This document shows, piece by piece, positions 43,287 to 43,329 of a DNA stretch of 45,911 nt. The position numbers were made by a program, and so were the translations under genes. The first letter of the stretch is position 1. The number at the start of each line of letters is the position of its first letter. Under the pieces are notes generated by a model. The model made no database searches. It was not told the DNA's origin and saw only the letters and a program-made list of their open reading frames with translations. This stretch comes from Verrucomicrobia subdivision 6 bacterium (GTDB lineage Bacteria; Verrucomicrobiota; Verrucomicrobiia; Methylacidiphilales; Verrucolacustridaceae): positions 1 through 45,911 of the forward strand of contig CANEUY010000003.1 of the NCBI GenBank assembly GCA_947442065.1, given 5' to 3'.

Positions 43287-43329
43287 CCTCCTTGAGGAAC
43301 TCTCTGGTTCCCGTTAAAGGACGCGTCCT
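43287..43329 (-). promoter_or_regulatory. PyrR-binding RNA hairpin overlapping the pyrR ribosome-binding site
   Basis: The minus-strand leader folds as follows. The lower stem is UCCUU/AAGGA (43321-43317 with 43293-43289). The internal bulge is UAACG on the 5' side and UC on the 3' side. The upper stem is GGAAC/GUUCC (43311-43307 with 43300-43296), and the terminal hexaloop CAGAGA (43306-43301) matches the CNGNGA consensus of PyrR-binding loops. The 3' lower arm is part of AAGGAGG (43293-43287), the Shine-Dalgarno. A mini-hairpin AGGA-CGCG-UCCU (43329-43318) could compete for the 5' arm and free the site. This predicts UMP/PyrR repression of translation initiation. Confidence 0.8.

Follow-up and report, generated by a model that had tools for sequence, protein, structure and literature searches.

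The closest described relative of the locus reported here is found in Mycobacterium smegmatis, for which Fields and Switzer are said to have demonstrated, in 2007, PyrR-dependent translational repression of the pyr genes. A second system, in Thermus ZO5, has reportedly been proposed to use PyrR-controlled attenuation through a leader peptide; a publication on this model was not found in the literature that we searched. Attenuation is the best-studied mode of PyrR action (PMC6296669), and the roles of UMP or UTP as co-repressor and of PRPP as antagonist belong to established PyrR biology (PMC6296669).

Here we analysed a 45,911 nt stretch of DNA (contig CANEUY010000003.1 of assembly GCA_947442065.1, hereafter the window) from a Verrucomicrobia subdivision 6 bacterium. 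An earlier note on the window had proposed a PyrR-binding loop upstream of pyrR. Its core reading, a loop that would hide the Shine-Dalgarno (SD) sequence, no attenuator, and translational control spreading through gene overlaps, is well supported by the comparative data below. As is reported for M. smegmatis, a PyrR loop lies at the pyrR ribosome-binding site, no attenuator is seen and translation would be the step controlled. In contrast to M. smegmatis, the host belongs to another phylum and the site is probably intercistronic, behind a DUF4032-like gene; in the genus studied here the OFF stem is also extended, and there is a candidate for an ON hairpin. With the PyrR attenuators of Bacillus and Streptococcus (RF00515) the locus shares the CNGNGA loop, the bulge, the two stems and the protein family, but it differs from them in that no terminator/antiterminator was found, in having one site per genome and in escaping detection by RF00515. 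The Thermus ZO5 model likewise has a ribosome-binding site covered by a PyrR loop, whereas the covered start here is that of pyrR itself. The switch is of a known kind and not a new mechanism; no earlier report of PyrR control in Verrucomicrobia was found in the literature searched.

Results

Architecture of the pyrR leader

On the minus strand, the stretch 5′ of pyrR reads ...GAUGACGCAGGACGCGUCCUUUAACGGGAACCAGAGAGUUCCUCAAGGAGGCGAAG-AUG, with the pyrR AUG at 43281. Sequence and predicted fold together contain the parts of a PyrR-binding loop that the earlier note had listed, namely a CNGNGA-type hexaloop on an upper stem, a 5′ bulge and a lower stem (Table 1). They also bear out its claim that the lower stem is built with the AAGGA of AAGGAGG: the SD sequence of the regulated gene lies inside the stem and is covered by the loop, as in an operator of the M. 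smegmatis type. AAGGAGG is spaced 5 nt from the AUG, and the gap from AAGG to the AUG is 8 nt. Beyond a G.G mismatch the lower stem continues as CGC/GCG (43325-43323 with 43287-43285), so that the whole pyrR SD is covered. The minimum free energy (MFE) of the leader is −18.3 kcal/mol for the fold that includes this extension. Fold z-scores varied from −0.5 to −2.9 with the piece folded (z = −2.85 for a 49-nt piece, 3 of 200 shuffles being equally good); folding energy alone is modest evidence for the loop, whereas conservation is strong evidence.

Table 1. Features of the pyrR leader and the pyr operon in the window.
Feature	Position	Strand	Basis
DUF4032-like gene, small, 80 aa	43345..43587	-	weak Pfam match
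Candidate ON hairpin GACGC-AGGAC-GCGUC	43320..43334	-	inferred; excludes OFF stem
OFF stem extended past the core loop by CGC/GCG	43285..43325	-	part of MFE fold; kept in genus
Core PyrR-binding loop	43289..43321	-	sequence, fold, covariation, covariance model
Lower stem UCCUU/AAGGA	43321-43317/43293-43289	-	sequence and fold
5′ bulge UAA	43316-43314	-	sequence and fold
Upper stem GGGAAC/GUUCCU (6 bp)	43312-43307/43300-43295	-	sequence and fold
Hexaloop CAGAGA (consensus CNGNGA)	43301..43306	-	sequence and comparison of leaders
pyrR SD AAGGAGG, within the lower stem	43287..43293	-	sequence
pyrR, regulator	42754..43281	-	NF003549, E 1e-67, above cut-off
pyrB, aspartate carbamoyltransferase	41813..42757	-	NF002032, E 9e-119
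pyrC, dihydroorotase	40527..41816	-	TIGR00857, E 3.5e-123, above cut-off
carA, carbamoyl-phosphate synthase small subunit	39374..40579	-	Pfam PF00988 and PF00117

Conservation and covariation of the loop

The check on relatives that the earlier note had called for, i.e. conservation of loop and stems 5′ of pyrR, came out in favour of the loop, which shows covariation and is present in every distinct pyrR leader known from the genus (17 of 17). Only the free positions of the hexaloop vary within the genus (CAGAGA, CUGAGA, CAGUGA, CGGAGA, CUGUGA and CUGCGA). Across 26 distinct leaders, some of which were collected by a pattern that requires CNGNGA and others of which (L127-L135) were found by the covariance model, the C, G, G and A of the hexaloop are fixed and the N positions variable. 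The distant leaders, except for nine found by the model, were collected by a pattern in which CNGNGA, UUUAA and AAGG are prescribed, and their invariance at these places is therefore partly built in.

The loop recurs with altered but compensated stems in other families of the order, in an Auribacterota genome and in a Gaiella genome. Among 22 leaders, 10 of the 15 base pairs have changed on both sides and are thus compensated; the covariation score is 0.395, versus 0.137 for shuffled and ≤ 0.10 for slid alignments. The CGC/GCG extension is retained across the genus via wobble changes on either strand. Judged by these compensatory changes and by its conservation upstream of pyr genes, the loop is no chance resemblance and the finding is real.

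Searches with covariance models gave a consistent distribution. The longer model found one site in the organism's own genome (E = 7e-13), and the core model returned the same site with E = 2e-7. The next match of the longer model, at 40938-41008, spans 71 nt with E = 0.43 and is not a credible PyrR site; the covariance model gave no further credible site in this assembly (1.33 Mb in 119 contigs, ~82% complete). Among 387 genomes of the phylum ten sites were found, nine of them outside the own genome and every one directly upstream of pyrR. The ten genomes concerned have the ten highest PyrR scores (212.6-227.4 bits) of the 198 genomes with a PyrR homologue; the eleventh (200.1 bits) is without a loop. 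In the Gaiella phylum, which we take to be Actinomycetota, the home phylum of M. smegmatis, 122 of 198 genomes matched the core model, each at one site apart from a single exception; genomes of a clostridial family had several sites each. Rfam scans, both at the gathering level (54 bits for RF00515) and with E up to 10, gave no match at the site, and RF00515 run against the whole own genome left the site unmatched. The existing family in Rfam does not capture this form of the PyrR loop.

The pyr operon and the gene upstream

The earlier note had described a coupled pyrR-pyrB-pyrC unit. Overlaps of 4 nt between pyrR and pyrB and between pyrB and pyrC, together with the profile matches, are in keeping with such coupling, but the operon extends further than claimed, to a carA gene recognized by Pfam domains. 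The start codon of carA is uncertain, and the open reading frame (ORF) given for it shares 53 nt with pyrC.

Upstream of the loop lies a small gene whose match to DUF4032 just exceeds the Pfam cut-off (24.4 versus 23.8 bits) and whose stop codon is 24 nt upstream of CCUUUAA. Such a gene stands directly 5′ of the loop, 10-37 nt away, in all 32 verrucomicrobial leaders checked; it precedes 33 of the 36 loop-bearing pyrR genes found by protein search, versus 4 of 82 loop-less ones. Because this gene is conserved directly upstream, the PyrR site is probably intercistronic. A search for a sigma-70-like promoter near the leader found none. We also considered a leader peptide starting at the AUG just 5′ of GACGC; this AUG is not kept in relatives, which argues that no such peptide exists.

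Loop presence and PyrR residues 146 and 152

The PyrR of this organism is a full-length homologue (NF003549, 227 bits versus a cut-off of 138) and keeps the loop-associated residues R15, R19, H22, R141, R146, K152 and N153 (RRHRRKN), as in Bacillus subtilis. We compared 143 PyrR proteins at positions that were not chosen beforehand, using B. subtilis numbering checked against 1a3c; the presence or absence of a loop at each pyrR locus was checked with the covariance model before counting. Loop-bearing and loop-less proteins were best separated by R146, H22, N153, P155, K152, E23 and R15. In B. subtilis, mutagenesis has reportedly implicated several residues in the binding of pyr RNA, R146 and K152 among them.

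R/K146 and K/R152 were both present in 60 of 61 loop-bearing proteins versus 1 of 82 loop-less proteins, and in 35 of 36 versus 1 of 82 when only proteins found by protein search were counted. On the best tree the association involves six changes, of which one is well supported, and an independent-pairs test yielded one supported pair, too few for significance. The association follows clades and hence does not amount to six independent confirmations; in the sequences compared it appears strong, yet clade-bound.

Most verrucomicrobial pyrR loci are without the loop (L035, L220-L238, L063-L117). The loop-less PyrRs examined are without R/K146 plus K/R152 and often have A or Q at 146 and L at 152. 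This suggests that the loop-less verrucomicrobial 'PyrR' proteins are no longer RNA-binding regulators. Many loop-less pyrR genes from Opitutae and relatives (L067-L117) have a GTG start, no evident SD and, ~40 nt before the start, a conserved stretch ending in ...TCAAAACC..GGGCTCGTGGCCAC; this arrangement resembles a promoter that would give rise to a leaderless mRNA.

Position of the loop relative to start codons and terminators

In the genus, a long ORF begins 2-8 nt past AAGG at 16 of 16 loops scanned, and the same holds for 13 of 15 other verrucomicrobial loops scanned. A scan for terminators between loop and pyrR or near the leader found none, nor was a terminator/antiterminator of the RF00515 type seen 3′ of the loop, in line with what the earlier note had stated. 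Since no terminator was found and the gap from AAGG to the AUG leaves no room for one, PyrR control of pyrR most likely acts on translation. AAGGA, the consensus of the loop's 3′ strand, doubles as an SD sequence, which may explain the ready use of the loop over ribosome-binding sites.

Other arrangements were observed elsewhere. At L133 and L135 (Verrucomicrobiota) and L054 (Auribacterota), a short ORF (~10-40 codons) has its start covered by the loop, and the same form occurs at many loci of the Gaiella phylum (e.g. L172, L178, L184, L186 and L187). Many of these short-ORF loci have a terminator-like hairpin and a T run between the short ORF and pyrR, and they resemble the leader-peptide model reportedly proposed for Thermus. 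In the clostridial family, 25 of the 34 loops examined are not at the start of a long ORF and nine are. Loops at L140/L141, L144, L151, L155, L156, L169 and L171 lie just 5′ of ORFs of ~280-310 aa (AAGGAGG...AUG), and other loops in those genomes are not at start codons; translational and non-start-codon PyrR loops may thus coexist in one clostridial cell.

A candidate ON hairpin

The loop is stable by itself, and translation without PyrR therefore needs an ON state. For this role the earlier note had put forward the small hairpin AGGA-CGCG-UCCU. It exists in the sequence, but it is weak (−2.4 kcal/mol), and relatives do not conserve the AGGA on its 5′ side. A better candidate for the competing structure is GACGC-N4/5-GCGUC (43334-43320), which has a predicted energy of −7.0 kcal/mol by itself and of −13.6 kcal/mol together with the upper stem, versus −18.3 kcal/mol for the OFF fold. 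With a variable loop, it is found in 15 of the 17 leaders of the genus; L044 has a rearranged version, and L043 lacks it, as do the leaders from outside the genus. The same GCGUC pairs in this hairpin and in the OFF stem, so the two are mutually exclusive. Because its stem hardly varies, covariation offers no proof of it. That GACGC-N4/5-GCGUC acts as an anti-sequestor forming first during transcription is plausible.

Discussion

The earlier note's main interpretation, a PyrR operator over the pyrR SD that controls translation, is very probably right, and we are confident that an intercistronic operator acting on translation of the pyrR operon is the best explanation of this locus. At high UMP (or UTP), PyrR would bind the CNGNGA loop and its stems and lock the lower stem over the pyrR SD, blocking initiation; the block would spread through the 4-nt overlaps and lower expression of pyrR-pyrB-pyrC, perhaps also of carA. 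With pyrimidines scarce and PRPP plentiful, PyrR would release the RNA and leave the SD open to ribosomes. Within the genus, the GACGC-N4/5-GCGUC hairpin would probably help, by forming first in transcription and sequestering the strand that makes up the 5′ side of the OFF stem. A full genus-specific two-state switch, in which the ON hairpin forms first and keeps the SD open, PyrR-UMP flips the structure, and ribosomes completing the DUF4032-like gene 24 nt upstream possibly modulate the outcome, is a tentative proposal that we hold somewhat less probable than its opposite.

Control might instead be exerted on transcription, through a terminator that our scan missed or through Rho-dependent termination of untranslated pyrR. 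Such a scheme would agree with the best-studied mode of PyrR action (PMC6296669), with related loci in which the loop precedes a short ORF and a terminator-like hairpin, and with the many clostridial loops away from start codons. It is nevertheless unlikely here, given the mere 8 nt between AAGG and the pyrR AUG and the failure of the scan to find a terminator-like site, although polarity could add to translational repression.

The two remaining readings dispense with PyrR. A structured SD hairpin that resembles a PyrR loop, serving as a thermosensor-like element or setting a basal level, would fit a fold that needs no protein to be stable and to cover the SD; we consider this very improbable, because the letters of hexaloop and bulge stay constant while the stems change and because loop-bearing PyrR proteins carry R/K146 and K/R152 almost without exception (60/61). 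The unremarkable fold z-scores and the missing RF00515 match might even be read as signs of a chance resemblance, a reading whose probability is close to nil and which is refuted by the conserved, covarying loop and by its association with pyrR throughout the phylum.

With the translational PyrR operator as the preferred reading, PyrR-mediated RNA control would extend into Verrucomicrobiota. What this locus adds to the known kind of switch is a better candidate for the ON hairpin, a probable position between two cistrons, a form that RF00515 does not detect, and the tendency of the loop and of residues 146/152 in verrucomicrobial PyrR to be present or absent together. Most PyrRs of the phylum come without the loop, and in those examined R146/K152 are missing too, which makes their usual name, pyr operon regulator, doubtful. 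The association of loop and residues may offer a simple test of which annotated PyrR proteins still regulate RNA.
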